From the NCBI RefSeq assembly GCF_001417815.1, contig NZ_BCFK01000054.1:1-64000 (forward strand): a stretch of DNA of 64,000 nt, read 5' to 3'. The position numbers and the translations under genes were made by a program. This DNA comes from Bifidobacterium aesculapii. Its GTDB lineage: Bacteria; Actinomycetota; Actinomycetes; Actinomycetales; Bifidobacteriaceae. The notes below the pieces were generated by a model, which saw only the letters and a program-made list of their open reading frames with translations, searched no databases and was not told the origin of the DNA. How positions within the stretch are numbered: the first letter of the stretch is position 1; each line of letters starts with the position of its first letter. Shown here piece by piece: positions 39,286 through 49,371 of the stretch.

Positions 39286-39289
<4 letters not shown>
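36875..39289 (-). CDS. uvrC: excinuclease ABC subunit C
   Basis: UvrC makes both incisions in nucleotide excision repair. The 804-residue protein is longer than the usual 600-690. A GIY-YIG domain (about 65-150, [20 protein letters not shown]), a UVR domain (about 270-305), an RNase H-like domain with catalytic aspartates in ECYDISN (about 530) and VVVDGGRPQ (about 655), and helix-hairpin-helix motifs (740-790) are all present. Two low-complexity insertions, about 362-425 and 597-645, account for the extra length. The start is GTG 39289, overlapping the uvrA stop by four bases (GTGA). Confidence 0.95.
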
Positions 39290-42219
<2,930 letters not shown>

Positions 42220-42421
42220 CACCTTCTCGACGATGACCTCGCCGTTCCTGCCGTTCGATCCCCTTCGCCCCGTGGCCACCGTTCCCGCCTTCCCCGCCGC
42301 ATGCGCGGCGCGCCCGCGTCCGTCGATTCCGCACCAAGGATACCCGACGACCCGACAGATATCGAACACACGTTCGATGGCGTGTCAATGCCGATGGGAG
42401 ACGCGGGGCGCCGGCCGGTCG

Positions 42422-45400
42422 TCACCGACCTTCGAGCACCGCCTCGCGCAACGAGCTCAGGCCCGTGTCCGGATCCCTGTAGGTGACGTACGCCTTGGTG
42501 CACACCGCAAGCATCTCGCCCGTTTTGCTTTCCGGCGCGGATACGATCACCTGGAACCCGAGTCGCGGCAGCACCATGAGCGCGCGCTGCGTGTACCGGC
42601 CGTCGGCCTTGATGAGCGCCTCATCGAGGAACAGCGTGGTGTAGCACGGCTCGCTGGTCATGCCTCCGCCGAGCAGATAGATGAGCGCGGCGCCGTAGAC
42701 GAACGAGGTGAGCTCCTGCAGCGCCCCGCCCGAGCGGCCTCCGGTGGAGGTGATGCGCTCGTCGGGCCCCTCGTCGTGCCGCACGACCGCATAGAAGGTG
42801 GAGCGGCAGCGCGGGTCGAGGTTGTGCGCGCCGATGCTGCGCACCCCGTTCGCGTCCTTGACCTTCCCCAGGTCGTCACGCAGCATGGCGATCATCGGCG
42901 CGCAGTCGTCGAACGTGCGCCGCGCCAGCTCGCCGTCGCCGCCGCCGTTTGCCGCGCAGGCGCGCCACGTCTTCAGCACGTCGATCACGTGGGCGAGCTT
43001 CGTACGGAATTCCGGATCGGCCCGGCGGATGTCGGCGTGGATCGACAGGCTGCCGCGGCGCGGACCGAACTCCTGGCCTTCCAGCATCGCGTTGATGCGG
43101 TCGAGCTGGTCGTGGATGTCCGCGGTGTCCGTGTCGATGGCGCGCTTGATGGTCATCATGCTCATGGCCAGCTGTTCGAGGCAACGCCTGTATTCATCGT
43201 CCGTCGTCTCGACGGCCACGAGCTTCGACAGGCCCTCGAGTTCGTCGAGATAATACCGGTGATCGTCCACGCTGGCGGCCAGCGAGCCGCCCTGCGACCC
43301 GTACACGTCGATGTACGTCGTCATCTTCGCCTCGACCGCGGCACGGGCCGCGCCGACGTCTCCCCTCAGCCCGGAGATGCGCGCGGCCATGTCCTTGGCC
43401 ATGCCGGCGATGATGCGGTCGGGGAACGATTCGCCCGACATCCCGGTCGACGCGAATCCGGCTCCGATGATCATGTGGGCGCGCAGCGCGGCGTCCCCGA
43501 TGCCGGCGAACCGGTTGTCATACGATTCGTCGAGCGCGGAGGCGATGTCGCCGGCGAGCGCGCCCGGGTCCTTTTCGCCGTGCGGCATCGCATCGCCATG
43601 GCGTTCCAGCCACCGGGCGGCCGCGGCCGCGGCCCGGGCCGCGGAGGACGCCGCCTGCTTGGCCTCAAGCCGACGCTCCTCGAGCGTCTCGAGCTCGCCG
43701 GCGAGCGCGTCGCGCCGTTCGGCGAGGCGTTTCATCTCCGGATCGTCTCCGGTCGCGCCGACCGCGGCCTCGAGATCGGCGACGGCGCGTCGCGCACCTT
43801 CCACGTCGACGTCCTCCCAGGTGGTGTAGGCGAGCAGGTCGGCGAGCTCATGCTCCCCGCGCAGCATATCGGACTGGCGTCGGGCCGCGTCGACGGCGTC
43901 CGTCGCATGTTCGAGGTCGCGGCCTGCCTCGCCGATCCGGCGCTCGAGGTCACCGAGATACGTCTCGTTGACGAATCCGATGATCTCGTCGCCGTCCTTG
44001 ACGCCGTGCTGTCCGCGTCCGCCGGATTTGATCTGCCCGTCGGCCTGCACCTGGCGGCGCTCCCGATCGGCGTCGTCGATGGCGTCCACGCACAACGCGT
44101 CGAGGTCCCGGTCGGAGGTGCGTTCGCGCAGCCAATCGGCGAAGGGCGAGTCCTCGCGGAAACGCAGTCTGTCGGACAGCCACGTCCCGTCATGCAGTCC
44201 TTCGCGCAACACGCTCGCCGAACCCCGATCCGCACGCGTCGTGTCCACGAACCGCCAGGTGCGTCGGGGCATCGTGCGCGGGTCGATGGCACTGACCTTG
44301 GCCGCGAACCCCTGTTCGTGGCGTTTGTCGACGAGGATGGTGCGGGCGATGGATCCGTAGACGGCGTTCATCGCCAGACGCCAATGCTCGTCCTCCTCGC
44401 GCACGTCCATGAGTTCCGCCACGTAGGGCAGTTCGGACGGCTCGAGGCCGGTGGCGTGGCAGAGCATGGCACGAGCCTCGTCCATGCGTCGGGTGATGCG
44501 GGTGCGCTGCGACCGCTGCCGTTCGTAGTCGGTCTTGAGACGGCGCAACCTGTCCGCCGCCTCGGCGCGTGCGGCGACGGCCTGGTCGCGGGAGTCGTCG
44601 AGCTCCTCCAGACGACGGTCGTAGCCGCGTTTGAAGTTCACCGCGGCGAGTCGGCGCCCGTTCCACGCCTGCTCCCCGTCCGGCGTCGTCTCGCCGAGCG
44701 CCTCGAAGCGACGCGCGATGCGGTCATGGGCGGCGGTGACGTCCTCGAGGCGACGGCGCGCCTGGTCGAGGCCGGCCTCGGCGCGGGCGAGGTCGCCGCC
44801 GTCCGCGCCCTGCATGCGACGGCTGATCGCGTCGAGGCGCGAGCGCAGCGCCTCGGCGCGCCGCTGCGAGTCGGCGGCGTCGTCTGCGCGGGCGCGCGCC
44901 TCCTGCTCGTCGACCGGCAGCTGCGCGGCGACCTCGGCCTTCATGCGGGCCAGCGCCCTGTCGCGGATGGCGGCGCTCCCCTCGTCGCTCGCAGGGTCGG
45001 CTGCGGCGAACGCGCGCATGCGCCCGCACGCCGCCTCGTATGCGGCGTAGCCGTCGCTGATGGCGCGAAGGGCCTTCATCCGTCGGATCTTGCTCTCCAT
45101 GGCGCGGAAGTTGCCGTCGTAGCGTTCGTAGTCCTCGACGGTGGCGCGCGCCAGACCGAGCGCCTCGGGCACGCCGAGCACGCCCTGTTTGAAGATGTCG
45201 TCCAGGCGGGAGGGGGCGTCGGCGGATTGGATCCTGTGCAGCAGACGGCACGCGGCCTCGCTCAGTCCCAAGACCGACCAGATGCGCGTATGGAACGCGT
45301 CGGCGCTTGGGAACGTCTCGCACCCCGGGTACGCGGCCTTGAGCTGGACCGCCGTGAACGGCGCCTGACGGTAGCGGTCCATCAGACGCGGGTCCATGGG

Positions 45401-45886
45401 CTCGTCCCAGGTCACGTAGCATCTGCGGACCTCGCCGCGGCCGTCGCCGGCCATGAGGTACAGGAACTTGCCGCAGGAGAGCACCTGCCCGGTGGTCCGG
45501 TTGTGGTACGTGTCGACGATGGCGCCCCATACCGGCTGCGGAGAGCCGTCCCCGTCGCGGCCGCGCAGGTAGAGCGGCTCGTCGCCGTCATCGGTGTTGC
45601 CGACGCCCGTCATGCCCCTCAGATAGGTGTAGTCGCTGCGTTCCGAACGGCCCGAGTTCGAGGCCTTGTTGAACGGCGTGCCCGTCGGGTATAGCAGCGA
45701 GGTCTGTGCGTCGACCAGTGTGGATTTGCCGGATTCGCTGGCGCCGGCGAGCAGGGTCACCGGCAGCGTCCCGTCGGTGGAGGGGCGGAATTCGTGGTAC
45801 CCCTCGTAGGTGCCCCAGTTGACGAGCCGGCGGGATTCCAGCATCCACCGGTCCGCTATCATCTGCACGTCCGCGGCAACCGTCAT
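42422..45886 (-). CDS. jetC: JetC/MksB: SMC-like ATPase of a Wadjet-type complex
   Basis: The 1154-residue protein has the MukB/SMC head-coil-head layout. The N-terminal head carries Walker [11 protein letters not shown] (about 47-56); long charged helical segments rich in Arg/Glu/Ala occupy about 290-880; the C-terminal head holds the ABC signature [15 protein letters not shown] (about 1048-1062) and Walker B TLFLDEA (about 1084-1090). In Wadjet (JetABCD) and actinobacterial MksBEFG complexes this subunit extrudes DNA loops so that the JetD/MksG nuclease can cut small circular DNA. The start overlaps the jetB stop (ATGA). No jetD follows: uvrA is the next gene. Confidence 0.88.
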
Positions 45887-46530
45887 CGTCCGTCCTTTCC
45901 GTCGTGCCCGTCCGTATCGTCGTCGCCTGCGGCGGCGAGCCACATGCCGGCGAGGTCCTGGTCGAGCACCACCGGCACCAGCGGCGTGATCAGGTACATG
46001 GATTCCTCGTCCATGCGCGCCAGATAGCCGTAGGTGACCATGGCGGAGACCGTCGCGCCCACCTGTCTGAGCACGCCCTCCTCGTCATTGCGCGAGGCGA
46101 GGTAGCCGGCGCCGGTGGCGAGCGCGGCGCGAATCTCCTCGAAGCCGACGATCCACTCGTCGGGCGCGGCGTGCACGTTCTCGTATTCGAGCACGCGTAT
46201 GCGCAGGAAGGCGAGCAGCGCCGCCTCTTCGCGCCGCAGGCTGACGCGCGTCTTGAGCGAGCGCAGCGCGACGTCCTCGCCGAGCACCGGCGTGGCGTAC
46301 ATGATGCGGTAGTGTTCGTCGACCACGAGGTCGAGCAGGTCGTTGTTCAGGGAGCGTACGACCGCGTCGCGGTGTTCGAGCACGGTGTCGTAGAGGTCCG
46401 AACCCACGTAGCGTTCGCGTTTGAGGGCGATGGCGGCCATGCGCGCTTCGGCGGGCATGTCGCCGAGGTCTCCTTCGAACAGTGCGTGCGGGTTCGTGGT
46501 CGCTTCGCGTTCCTCGTTCATGATGTCCAT
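45883..46530 (-). CDS. jetB: JetB/MksE: kleisin-partner subunit (DUF4194)
   Basis: The 215-residue acidic protein matches the DUF4194/MukE-like subunit in size, in position between the 516-residue jetA and the SMC-like jetC, and in pattern, with [21 protein letters not shown] and a winged-helix-like C-terminal half ([19 protein letters not shown]). In Wadjet it bridges the kleisin JetA and the JetC heads. It starts two bases after the jetA stop and overlaps jetC by four bases, so the three genes form one tightly coupled operon. Confidence 0.85.
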
Positions 46531-46532
46531 CC

Positions 46533-48083
46533 CTACATCTCCTCCATGACGGTGTCCAGTTCGTGCGGGTCGACCAGCATGGGCGCGGTGGTCCAGTCCC
46601 TGGGCTCGCCGTCGATCGACATGCAGTGCCAGAGCGAGGTCCGGGCGCCGGGCGCGTCGGCATCGCGTCTCTCGTCCCGCGGCGCCGCGTCCAGTCCTTC
46701 CAGGAAGCCGATGATCTCGCTTTCGCGCCGTTCGTGTTCGGGCAGCCGGTTGAAGCTCGCGGCGATGTCGACGAGACCGTCGCGGATCACCGGGGCGCGC
46801 AGGATGAGCCCCACCATGTGCTTCAGCCGTGGGCCTCCGTTGGCGACCAGCGCCAGCAGGTCGGCCGCCGGCATGCGCGCGGGGGCGCCGTCGGACATGT
46901 CGGCGAGGAGGGGCGGCGCCGTGCGGCGCATCGTCTTCGCCGGGCGGGTGGGCAGCGGCGCGTAGAGCGCTTCGGCGGTGTCGGTCGCGTATGGACGGGC
47001 GGAGTCGCCGGGATGCGCCTTCGCGTCGGCGTTGATCCGGGCGTACAGGCGGTTGAGGCGTGTGAGCATCGTGCGGTAGCGCACGTCCGTCTGCTGGCGC
47101 ATGAGGCGGCTGACGGCCTCGTCGGAGACGCGCATCTGGCGGCGCACGTCCTCGATGCCGTCGTAGATGCGGGCGAGTTCGTCGCGCACCTGGCCGAGCA
47201 ATGCGCCGGAGCCGCCGGTCAGGTACGGGGTCTTCGCGATGGCGCGCAGCGCCTCGTCGATCTGCTGCCTGCCCTCGTCGGTGATGATCACCTGGAAGGC
47301 GTCTTCGAAGCGCCGGCCGGCGTCCGATTCCCGGAACGAGCGACGGTACGCCTCATGGTAGCCGGCGAGGTTCTCGTCGACGCTCATGCCGCCGGCCTGC
47401 ATGCGCCGGCGCAGGGCGTCGCCGTTGTCGCGTTCGGCGAGCGCCAGTTCGCGCAGGTCGACGGGAACGCCGCGCAGCGTGTTGTGGATCACCGCGATGA
47501 TGTCCTGCACCTGCGCGTCGCTGAGATGGTCGTATTCGCGGCCGTGCCGGATGCGCGCGATCTCGCGCTTGCGCTCCTTGATTTCACGGTTGAGCAGGCG
47601 CACGCGTTCGCCGGGGTCGGCGGTCAGCCGCATGCGCGCATGCTCGATCTCCATGATGATGCTGTTGGCCTGCGCCCCGGACAGGGTGCGCGCGTCGTCC
47701 TCGAGACGCCCCAACGCCTCGATGGCCCGGTGGGCGCGGGCGGTGAGACGGTACAGGAACCGGTGCGAGGATTCGTCGTGCGAGTTGGCGAGCCACGCGT
47801 AGTCCCCCTCCCCTTCGCGGGTGAGTTCGACGAGTATGCCGTGGGCGGCGTCGGCGAATGTCTCGTCGGGCTGCGGCGCGTACTGTCCACCGTCCGCGAG
47901 CGCCGCGAGCCCCTGGGCGAACCGTTCCTCGACCGTTTCGCGGGGCAGTTCACCCGTCAGCGGGTCGAACGCGGCCCTGAGCAGCGCCACGTACAGGCGT
48001 GCGTTGCGCCGCAGCAGCAGGCGCAGCACGCCGGTCTCGTAGACCGGACGCAGCCGTTCCATCTCACGCCTCGCGTCGCCCAT
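46533..48083 (-). CDS. jetA: JetA/MksF: kleisin-like subunit (DUF3375)
   Basis: The 516-residue protein resembles DUF3375. The N-terminal helices [31 protein letters not shown] are followed by [13 protein letters not shown] and a long helical middle region. The C-terminal part holds PDW-like elements ([13 protein letters not shown]). JetA is the MukF-like kleisin that dimerises two motor units. GGGGAGG before ATG 48083 sets the start; an in-frame ATG at 48116 lacks it. It is the first gene of the operon, with a divergent gene 256 bp away. The gap between them holds the leader described at 48296-48343. Confidence 0.85.
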
Positions 48084-48322: not shown

Positions 48323-48343
48323 ATGAAGGAAGTGTCATCATGA
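48323..48343 (+). CDS. possible leader peptide MKEVSS
   Basis: ATG at 48323 opens six codons (MKEVSS) and ends in TGA at 48341-48343, overlapping the ATG of the following gene (ATGA). AAAGGAGG stands 12 bases upstream, which is a long spacer. If translated, termination would deliver ribosomes to the next start. The downstream gene also has its own AAGGAAG inside this frame, so the peptide may be incidental. Confidence 0.35.
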   Translation: MKEVSS

Positions 48344-49371
48344 CGCAGGCAGTCATCACGCGGTCCACGGATGGAGCGCAGGGGCCTTCGGGCGAATCGT
48401 GGACGGAACGGTTCAGAAGGGACGTCGACCGACGCTACGTCTCCGACGACCAGGTGGACAGGGCGGCGCGGCTCATCGACGAGATCGCGCGTATGGCGGT
48501 GGCGCGCGGCATGTCCCTCGAGCCGCCTTCCGACCGGTTGTTCGAACGGGCGCAGGAGGCGAAGTGGCCGTGGCCGCACATCGTCGTCAAGGACGGCGAG
48601 GGATTCCTGCGCTCCTTCCATGTGGCGGAGCTGTCGAAGCCGGGCACCGCGCCGAAGCCCCGGAGACTGTCGGGCGAACCGCAGAACGGGATTCCGATGT
48701 GGATCGCCGGCAGGTCGCGGCAGTTCGAGCCGACGGGGGCGTTGTCGCTGCGGGTCGACGGCGACATGCCGCGCACAGGGCAGCGTTCCATGCGCGATAC
48801 GGTGCATTCGCGCATCGAGGAGCGGCTTGGCGTCCTGTTCGAGACGATGGCGGATGACACGCGGCTGGCGCGCGAGTACGCGGAGGCGGAGCGACGTCGC
48901 GAGGTCACCGTCGAACAGGCGCAGCGCGCGTGTCTCGTCGACCGGCTGTACACGGCATTGTGCGACGAGGTGCGCGCGCATGAGGAGCTGCGGCGACAGC
49001 GCTGCTATCTCGATGAGGTCGAGCAGCGTCTGCGCCGCACGGATCCGGACAGGCTGCTCGTCGTCGCCGACGACATCGAGATGATGCGGGAGCATATCGA
49101 CAAGCGCGACCCGCTGACCGGCGGCGGCGTCGCCTGGTGCACCCAGCCGGCGCCCACCGATGTGGACGTGTACGAGTACATGCGCCGCAACAGGCAGGCG
49201 ACCGCGGGCGGCCGGGACGGCGGGTGTGCGGGAGACCCATACCCGGGCGCCCCGTACCCGGACGGCATGTATTCGTCAGGCACGTATTCGGACGACGGGT
49301 TCCCGGCATACGGGAACCGGCCGCAGCCCCACATATCCCCGACGATCGACGACGACGGATTCTTCGACTGA
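48340..49371 (+). CDS. actinobacterial protein of unknown function, divergent from jetABC
   Basis: I do not assign a function. The 343-residue soluble protein has a globular N-terminal half, including WPWPHIVVKDGEGFLRSFHVAEL (about 80-102) and a PTGALSLRV strand. A charged helical segment follows (about 165-240, AREYAEAERRREVTVEQAQRA), and the tail is low-complexity with repeated PY/YPG-type residues and an acidic end DDDGFFD. This layout recalls a broad family of uncharacterised actinobacterial proteins (some mislabelled PE-PGRS). It has no TOPRIM or nuclease motif and is not JetD. It is transcribed away from jetA, so a shared divergent promoter region is possible. AAGGAAG eight bases before ATG 48340 supports the start. 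Confidence 0.75.
   Translation: MTQAVITRSTDGAQGPSGESWTERFRRDVDRRYVSDDQVDRAARLIDEIARMAVARGMSLEPPSDRLFERAQEAKWPWPHIVVKDGEGFLRSFHVAELSKPGTAPKPRRLSGEPQNGIPMWIAGRSRQFEPTGALSLRVDGDMPRTGQRSMRDTVHSRIEERLGVLFETMADDTRLAREYAEAERRREVTVEQAQRACLVDRLYTALCDEVRAHEELRRQRCYLDEVEQRLRRTDPDRLLVVADDIEMMREHIDKRDPLTGGGVAWCTQPAPTDVDVYEYMRRNRQATAGGRDGGCAGDPYPGAPYPDGMYSSGTYSDDGFPAYGNRPQPHISPTIDDDGFFD

Follow-up and report, generated by a model that had tools for sequence, protein, structure and literature searches.

The closest described relatives of the locus studied here are the Wadjet type I systems (MksBEFG, EptABCD), in which JetC, an SMC (structural maintenance of chromosomes) ATPase, the kleisin JetA and the KITE subunit JetB are accompanied by the TOPRIM nuclease JetD (MksG). 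All four Jet genes are needed for plasmid suppression in Bacillus subtilis, according to PMC10586767. The same paper presents MksBEF of Pseudomonas aeruginosa as a complex that likely arose by JetD loss and that contributes to chromosome organisation; PMC7617805 mentions several Wadjet-group members without MksG/JetD, and Table 6 of PMC11719660 lists as 'Wadjet' a JetA-JetB-JetC locus without JetD in Paenarthrobacter lasiusi. The kind is therefore already known. Here we describe a jetA-jetB-jetC operon without jetD in a stretch of 64,000 nucleotides (the window) of Bifidobacterium aesculapii (contig NZ_BCFK01000054.1, positions 1 to 64,000), and compare it with its counterparts in the genus and the class. 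Our literature search, which was partial and covered few subscription journals, turned up nothing on the loss of JetD in Bifidobacterium, and we claim no novelty in print.

Our preferred reading, to which we give a probability of about 0.6, is that the operon would encode an SMC complex of the Wadjet/Mks group that lacks a nuclease, having arisen from a four-gene system by loss of jetD and been kept for a function independent of cleavage. Sequence comparison carries us as far as an intact operon, no JetD found, repeated loss within the genus with JetABC kept, and purifying selection. The informative part is that loss was repeated, with similar constraint, in a single genus, and this makes an open question testable.

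The three genes are consecutive, coupled frames on the minus strand (window positions 42422-48083), followed by the site at which relatives carry jetD:

46533..48083, minus strand: jetA (mksF), kleisin-type subunit, DUF3375; the open frame extends to 48116 and the likely start is ATG 48083
45883..46530, minus strand: jetB (mksE), KITE-type subunit, DUF4194; carries an N-terminal motif common in the genus
42422..45886, minus strand: jetC (mksB), SMC/Muk-like ATPase; starts at ATG 45886 (the mechanical list of open reading frames starts it at GTG 45943)
42378..42421, minus strand: gap of 44 nt between the jetC stop and the SOS-like box of uvrA; site of jetD in JetD-bearing relatives, with no JetD-like piece found

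A Shine-Dalgarno-like GGGGAGG precedes the jetA start, jetA and jetB are spaced by 2 nt, and the ATG of jetC overlaps the jetB stop as ATGA. JetA scored 294 bits against Pfam DUF3375 (cut-off 28.6) and 842 bits against PADLOC JetA1, JetB 107 bits against DUF4194 (cut-off 32.7) and 359 bits against JetB1, and JetC 1756 bits against JetC1, with AAA_29 and SbcC_Walker_B both above their curated Pfam cut-offs. Walker A (GASESGKS), signature (SGGALQELT) and Walker B motifs are all present in JetC, whose best match among PDB sequences is the JetC of entry 8dk2, titled P. aeruginosa PA14 JetABC. For JetB the best PDB sequence match had an E-value of only 0.22, and neither JetA nor JetB matched an NCBIfam family at E<=0.01. 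A preliminary description of this DNA, made from the letters alone, had proposed coupled jetABC genes of these families, an intact set of ATPase motifs and uvrA as the gene after jetC; profile matches, motifs and gene order bear it out on each point. It had also named assignment to an unrelated SMC family as grounds for abandoning the idea, and JetC reaches only 31.9 bits against the SMC model TIGR02168 (cut-off 567).

Gene order, families and best PADLOC models (JetA1, JetB1, JetC1) are thus those of Wadjet type I, in which jetD stands directly behind jetC in JetD-bearing relatives (with one exception, G004, discussed below). What differs is the nuclease. PF09983 (JetD_C) and PF11795 (DUF3322) had no match in the window genome (2,693,486 bases, 99.85% complete), and a profile built from five Bifidobacterium JetD sequences found nothing there at E<=10. 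As positive controls, both Pfam models matched in Corynebacterium glutamicum, and the Bifidobacterium profile gave a match in 7 of 16 further genomes of Bifidobacterium, the same 7 as Pfam, 5 of which had contributed no sequence to it. The lack of jetD noted in the operon by the preliminary description therefore extends to the whole genome as searched with three JetD models, none of which located the nuclease elsewhere that it had offered as one option, or the distant jetD that it had said would count against it. The arrangement left, consecutive and co-directional MksF-MksE-MksB genes with no adjacent MksG, is that of MksBEF-like systems. Like P. aeruginosa MksBEF and Escherichia coli MukBEF, it is a kleisin-KITE-SMC operon without MksG/JetD; unlike them, it belongs to a genus in which the nuclease is lost at scattered points while sister species still carry JetD. 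Pfam holds models for the MukB, MukE and MukF families, and no Muk family was among the Pfam matches of the three proteins at E<=0.01, a result limited to sequence models, so we do not place the operon with MukBEF proper. P. lasiusi shares with it an actinobacterial JetA-JetB-JetC locus without JetD, and differs in carrying a JetA1-B1-C1-D1 type I locus in addition; the window genome has a single JetA and no JetD that we could find. SMC-ScpAB is similar in pairing an SMC-class ATPase with partner subunits, and different by the low TIGR02168 score of JetC and because the window genome encodes SMC and ScpB separately.

We then compared the locus across Bifidobacterium, as the preliminary description had suggested. 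DUF3375 was present in 60 of 112 genomes and JetD_C in 36, all of them among the 60, so that JetABC occurs without JetD in 24 genomes, the window genome (G000) included. The comparison used 60 stretches from the other 59 JetA genomes (G046 supplied two contigs) and the window itself; the species named below are B. amazonense (G004), B. colobi (G023), B. moukalabense (G051), B. platyrrhinorum (G058), B. reuteri (G067), B. saguinibicoloris (G071), B. scaligerum (G073) and B. stellenboschense (G097). In all 24 JetD-less genomes JetA, JetB and JetC are each one uninterrupted frame, and every row has the Walker A, signature and Walker B motifs. Two of these genomes, G010 and G027, are single-contig assemblies, so assembly gaps do not explain the absence of JetD in them. 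We searched the 24 loci for jetD remnants with a profile of 33 proteins and six-frame pieces of at least 25 aa, and obtained one match at E<1 (G036, E=0.15), which lies far upstream of the jetD site. In G014 and G016, which have no JetA, DNA matches to the window's flanks are found and none longer than 150 bases to about 42.3-49.5 kb, the segment without counterpart being jetABC and the divergent neighbour of jetA.

JetABC is under strong purifying selection without JetD, similar to that on JetD-bearing branches. A codon model in which each branch has its own omega was applied to 20 trios of concatenated JetA, JetB and JetC (1785-1880 codons), using our own script, unchecked against PAML. Among 10 mixed trios, not all independent because three share G097, omega was 0.061-0.125 on the JetD-less branch and 0.049-0.111 on the JetD-bearing one, and equality was rejected at p<0.05 in just one (G071 vs G097), where the JetD-less branch was the more constrained. 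Pairs of JetD-less genomes gave similar values (G027/G051 0.111/0.095; G031/G054 0.073/0.114; G070/G031 0.092/0.070), and 1 of 7 JetD-bearing control trios differed at p<0.05 (G101/G007). The value on the window's own branch was 0.087. Omega=1 was rejected for all 13 JetD-less first branches (statistic at least 14.5) and was not rejected in the control trio G021/G038/G006 (statistic 0.4), whose distant outgroup shows how little power the statistic has in such cases. We also looked at conserved columns, after dropping G032, G068 and G046: among the 329 columns with at least 97% conservation across 33 JetD-bearing rows, none fell below 85% in the 24 JetD-less rows, and in the reverse direction 13 of 455 degraded, a test that is weak because the JetD-less rows are nested among JetD-bearing ones. 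Across the genus we thus find an intact ATPase under purifying selection without the nuclease, as expected of an MksBEF-like complex.

The history of jetD was read from a JetABC tree (60 rows, quick IQ-TREE, LG+G4, support by SH-aLRT, the Shimodaira-Hasegawa-like approximate likelihood ratio test, only). JetD state changes 14 times on it, and the starred branches alone force 14 changes; if JetD was ancestral and never regained, 21 losses are needed. Given the long-branch warning for G065, G000, G022 and others, these counts are approximate. Loss is most directly seen in B. saguinibicoloris, a close relative, where jetC is followed by ATG AGC CGT ATG AAA AGC GTG AGG GAA TGA and then by the uvrA promoter. 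This nine-codon stub, below the 25-aa limit of the remnant scan and read by eye, starts like jetD of its neighbour B. stellenboschense (ATG AGC CGT ATG AAG AGC GTG GAG), and hence the JetD-less state of B. saguinibicoloris is a loss. In 14 pairs that we aligned, homology is lost no more than about 160 nt from the jetC stop, and it resumes past the jetD position in 12 of them (no resumption was seen in G054 and G066). By eye in alignments, G027 and B. moukalabense have a common JetD-less junction, with jetC ending inside the uvrA box, and G020, B. colobi and G070 share another, part of which is found in G031. Loss therefore predates the measured branch in G027/G051 and G023/G070, and JetABC seems to have persisted after it: omega is 0.06-0.11 in the shared-junction lineages (G020 lies outside those trios). 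On the other branches the loss may be late.

There are also signs of movement in the opposite direction. B. scaligerum carries jetD, is 93% identical in DNA over the jet region to the JetD-less B. colobi and does not have the JetD-less junction that its relatives share, which points to regain. JetD of G097 and G050 groups away from the position predicted by their JetABC. The position behind jetC resembles a site of gene exchange. Different genes stand directly behind jetD in different species: a nucleotidyltransferase and HEPN-like pair (MntA/HepT-like, by eye) in B. stellenboschense (about 10900-11760 of L081), a pair of the same type, also by eye, in B. scaligerum (about 10920-11640 of L045), and another gene in G043.

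The pattern is not confined to the genus. Among 393 genomes of the class, 71 had a DUF3375 match and 67 a match at E below 1e-50 (the matches of G173 and G423 were split, and four weak or fragmentary ones were dropped). Counted by hand, 30 of the 67 had any JetD_C match and 37, the window genome included, had none, so JetD-less JetABC is common in the class; in presenting JetD as a regular member of actinobacterial operons, the preliminary description was too strong. It also follows from the 24 of 60 and 37 of 67 JetA genomes without JetD that detecting jetABC is no evidence of plasmid restriction. We inspected 40 class loci, from 26 JetD-less genomes, second loci of 4 JetD-bearing genomes and 10 JetD-bearing controls. 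The JetD profile at E<=1e-3 matched none of the 30 loci without JetD and all 10 controls, and JetC was found at 29 of the 30 (none in G320; the copy in G299 is cut by a masked stretch). Since the profiles missed some loci (JetA: G402, G465; JetB: G198, G316), complete operons are shown for only part of the set. Rows with and without JetD are interspersed in several clades of a 58-row JetC tree (20 rows of the genus and 38 of the class), and some class clades are JetD-less throughout, the class rows having been picked partly for JetD absence. The genes behind jetC at 29 class loci had no common member by eye.

We also asked which other SMC complexes these genomes encode. The window genome has a canonical SMC (855.6 bits; TIGR02168 cut-off 567) and a ScpB (76673-77146) on the window's contig, beyond the window end. 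A ScpB match is lacking in 40 of the 112 Bifidobacterium genomes, 39 of them without a convincing SMC and G013 with only broken SMC pieces; 20 of the 40 were inferred by subtraction, and ScpA was outside the search. As a side observation, 15 of the 40 genomes without SMC and ScpB have no DUF3375 match either, so that some Bifidobacterium species seem to have neither of the condensin types covered by the search. SMC replacement as a general explanation for JetD-less JetABC was rejected, as 19 of 35 JetABC genomes with SMC are JetD-less and only 5 of 25 without SMC/ScpB (G027, B. moukalabense, G059, G017 and G025).

How could a three-gene complex be maintained? We infer the assembly of the complex, loop extrusion and the biological role of JetABC as follows. 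An ancestral four-gene Wadjet system would lose jetD; JetC dimers with the JetA kleisin and the JetB KITE subunit would still hydrolyse ATP, entrap DNA and extrude loops; without JetD, the state of a fully extruded small circle would never be converted to a cut; and selection would keep JetABC for a function needing no cleavage. By analogy with P. aeruginosa MksBEF, that role would most likely be in DNA or chromosome organisation beside the canonical SMC, or in handling extrachromosomal DNA without cutting it. In the preliminary description the observation was right and the interpretation only partly supported, the option that would fit best being work without cleavage, or DNA and chromosome organisation. 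Intact JetABC kept without JetD in many relatives suggests such a useful role without DNA cutting.

Several observations weigh against this reading. The window genome has neither a jetD remnant nor a shared JetD-less junction, so that its own loss is undated. Its JetABC sits on a long branch (0.39 on the JetABC tree) and shares 75% DNA identity with G097 over 42500-48083, compared with 90% on the uvrA side (39300-42300); this gap may reflect fast evolution or allele replacement at jetABC. JetD-less genomes are commoner with SMC than without (Fisher p=0.009, relatedness uncorrected), and the absence of JetD-less enrichment among SMC/ScpB-less species makes JetABC unlike a replacement condensin; only 0-3 of 14 independent pairs differ in SMC, which leaves no phylogeny-aware signal. 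In C. glutamicum, where MksG is present, growth and morphology were unaffected by deletion of mksB, and non-chromosomal DNA is, in the authors' conclusion, the sole target of MksBEFG (PMC7083940). Finally, the N-terminal motif of JetB is kept, by eye, in all 24 JetD-less genomes of the genus. In the studied system JetD contacts an IFDR motif of JetB (PMC10586767), of which we take the genus motif to be the counterpart, and its retention would fit recent loss or a JetD partner. As a sign of JetD dependence we found the motif uninformative, since in the genus it is retained whether or not JetD is present, and in the class the picture is mixed.

JetABC could instead be a Wadjet core awaiting its effector, JetD being an exchangeable last gene that recombines at the 3' end of jetC, returns often enough across species, and leaves JetABC doing little in a JetD-less strain. 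We consider this unlikely, in spite of the frequent gain and loss of JetD on the JetABC tree, the probable regain in B. scaligerum (jetD with a MntA/HepT-like pair, and no trace of its relatives' junction), the displaced JetD of G097 and G050 and the retained JetB motif, all of which it would explain. It does not sit well with the low omega within shared-junction lineages (G027 and G051; G023 and G070), with broken frames in 0 of 24 JetD-less operons, or with class JetC clades wholly without JetD, albeit among rows chosen partly for that absence. The idea that what is left is a functionless remnant of a recent loss, with decay yet to come, fares worse, and we regard it as very improbable: the stub in B. 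saguinibicoloris indicates that some losses are recent, and most terminal branches, the window's included, carry undated ones, but all 24 operons are uninterrupted, omega is no higher on JetD-less branches, and two groups share JetD-less junctions.

Plasmid restriction through a nuclease encoded elsewhere, or through a general host nuclease, is an improbable explanation. Its best precedent is B. amazonense, where jetD lies on another contig than jetABC (L174, 9651-10958), beside unrelated-looking genes, the sole such case seen, so that some members of the genus may have JetD in trans. However, we found no JetD-type gene in the window genome and no JetD-like frame near jetABC at the 24 JetD-less genus loci; no common replacement gene stands behind jetC by eye at 18 of these (the other 6 have uvrA there); and the divergent neighbour is not tied to JetD absence. 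We put forward tentatively a further view, which we hold to be rather doubtful: in Bifidobacterium selection would act on JetABC as the stable unit, to which JetD would be an optional effector open to exchange, and in species without SMC/ScpB JetABC might organise the chromosome alone. If this were true, the genus would show, many times over, an anti-plasmid machine becoming a condensin, and JetABC would be the only SMC/Muk-type complex found in G027, G051, G059, G017 and G025. Relatives that differ in jetD with 90-93% DNA identity over the jet region (G073/G023, G045/G059 and G015/G047) offer natural experiments.

The remaining features around the operon are the following:

48340..49371, plus strand: divergent neighbour of jetA, no family assigned; the evidence is against it being a JetD substitute
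39286..42369, minus strand: uvrA, next gene after jetC, outside the system; the open frame is given, and the true start is probably downstream of the box
42362..42377, plus strand: perfect palindrome TCGAAC-N4-GTTCGA upstream of uvrA, with 0 mismatches

The divergent neighbour had been suggested as a possible partner of JetABC. We rejected it as a JetD substitute because it adjoins jetA also in the JetD-bearing B. stellenboschense; it lies a few kb from jetA in the JetD-less B. platyrrhinorum and B. saguinibicoloris, and G072, which has no DUF3375 match, contains a 281-bp, 66%-identical match to it in a syntenic block. At E<=0.01 it matched nothing in Pfam, PADLOC or NCBIfam. Its AlphaFold model, built from four sequences, is poor (mean predicted local distance difference test score, pLDDT, 65) and contains one very long helix; Foldseek gave 0 matches against the PDB at E<=0.001 with this model, which is too weak to exclude any fold. 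A replacement effector behind jetC was likewise rejected after inspection by eye of the open frames at the 18 JetD-less genus loci without uvrA there.

PF01051 (Rep3_N), taken as a proxy for plasmid load, matched 1 of 112 genomes and was uninformative. Some JetD-bearing loci are themselves broken or incomplete. In G040 JetC falls into two frames and in G019 JetD has an internal TAG, both beside very close relatives with unbroken genes, which reflects either decay in progress or sequencing error; JetD of G062 is truncated, and the jet locus of G046 is interrupted by contig ends. G022 has a second, diverged JetD-like gene (L175, 9170-10303) with no JetA, JetB or JetC match within its 19-kb stretch. 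At the JetD-less class locus of G190 (L193), SbcD- and SbcC-like genes, identified by eye, stand behind jetC. The palindrome between jetC and uvrA in the window is presumably a LexA-like box.

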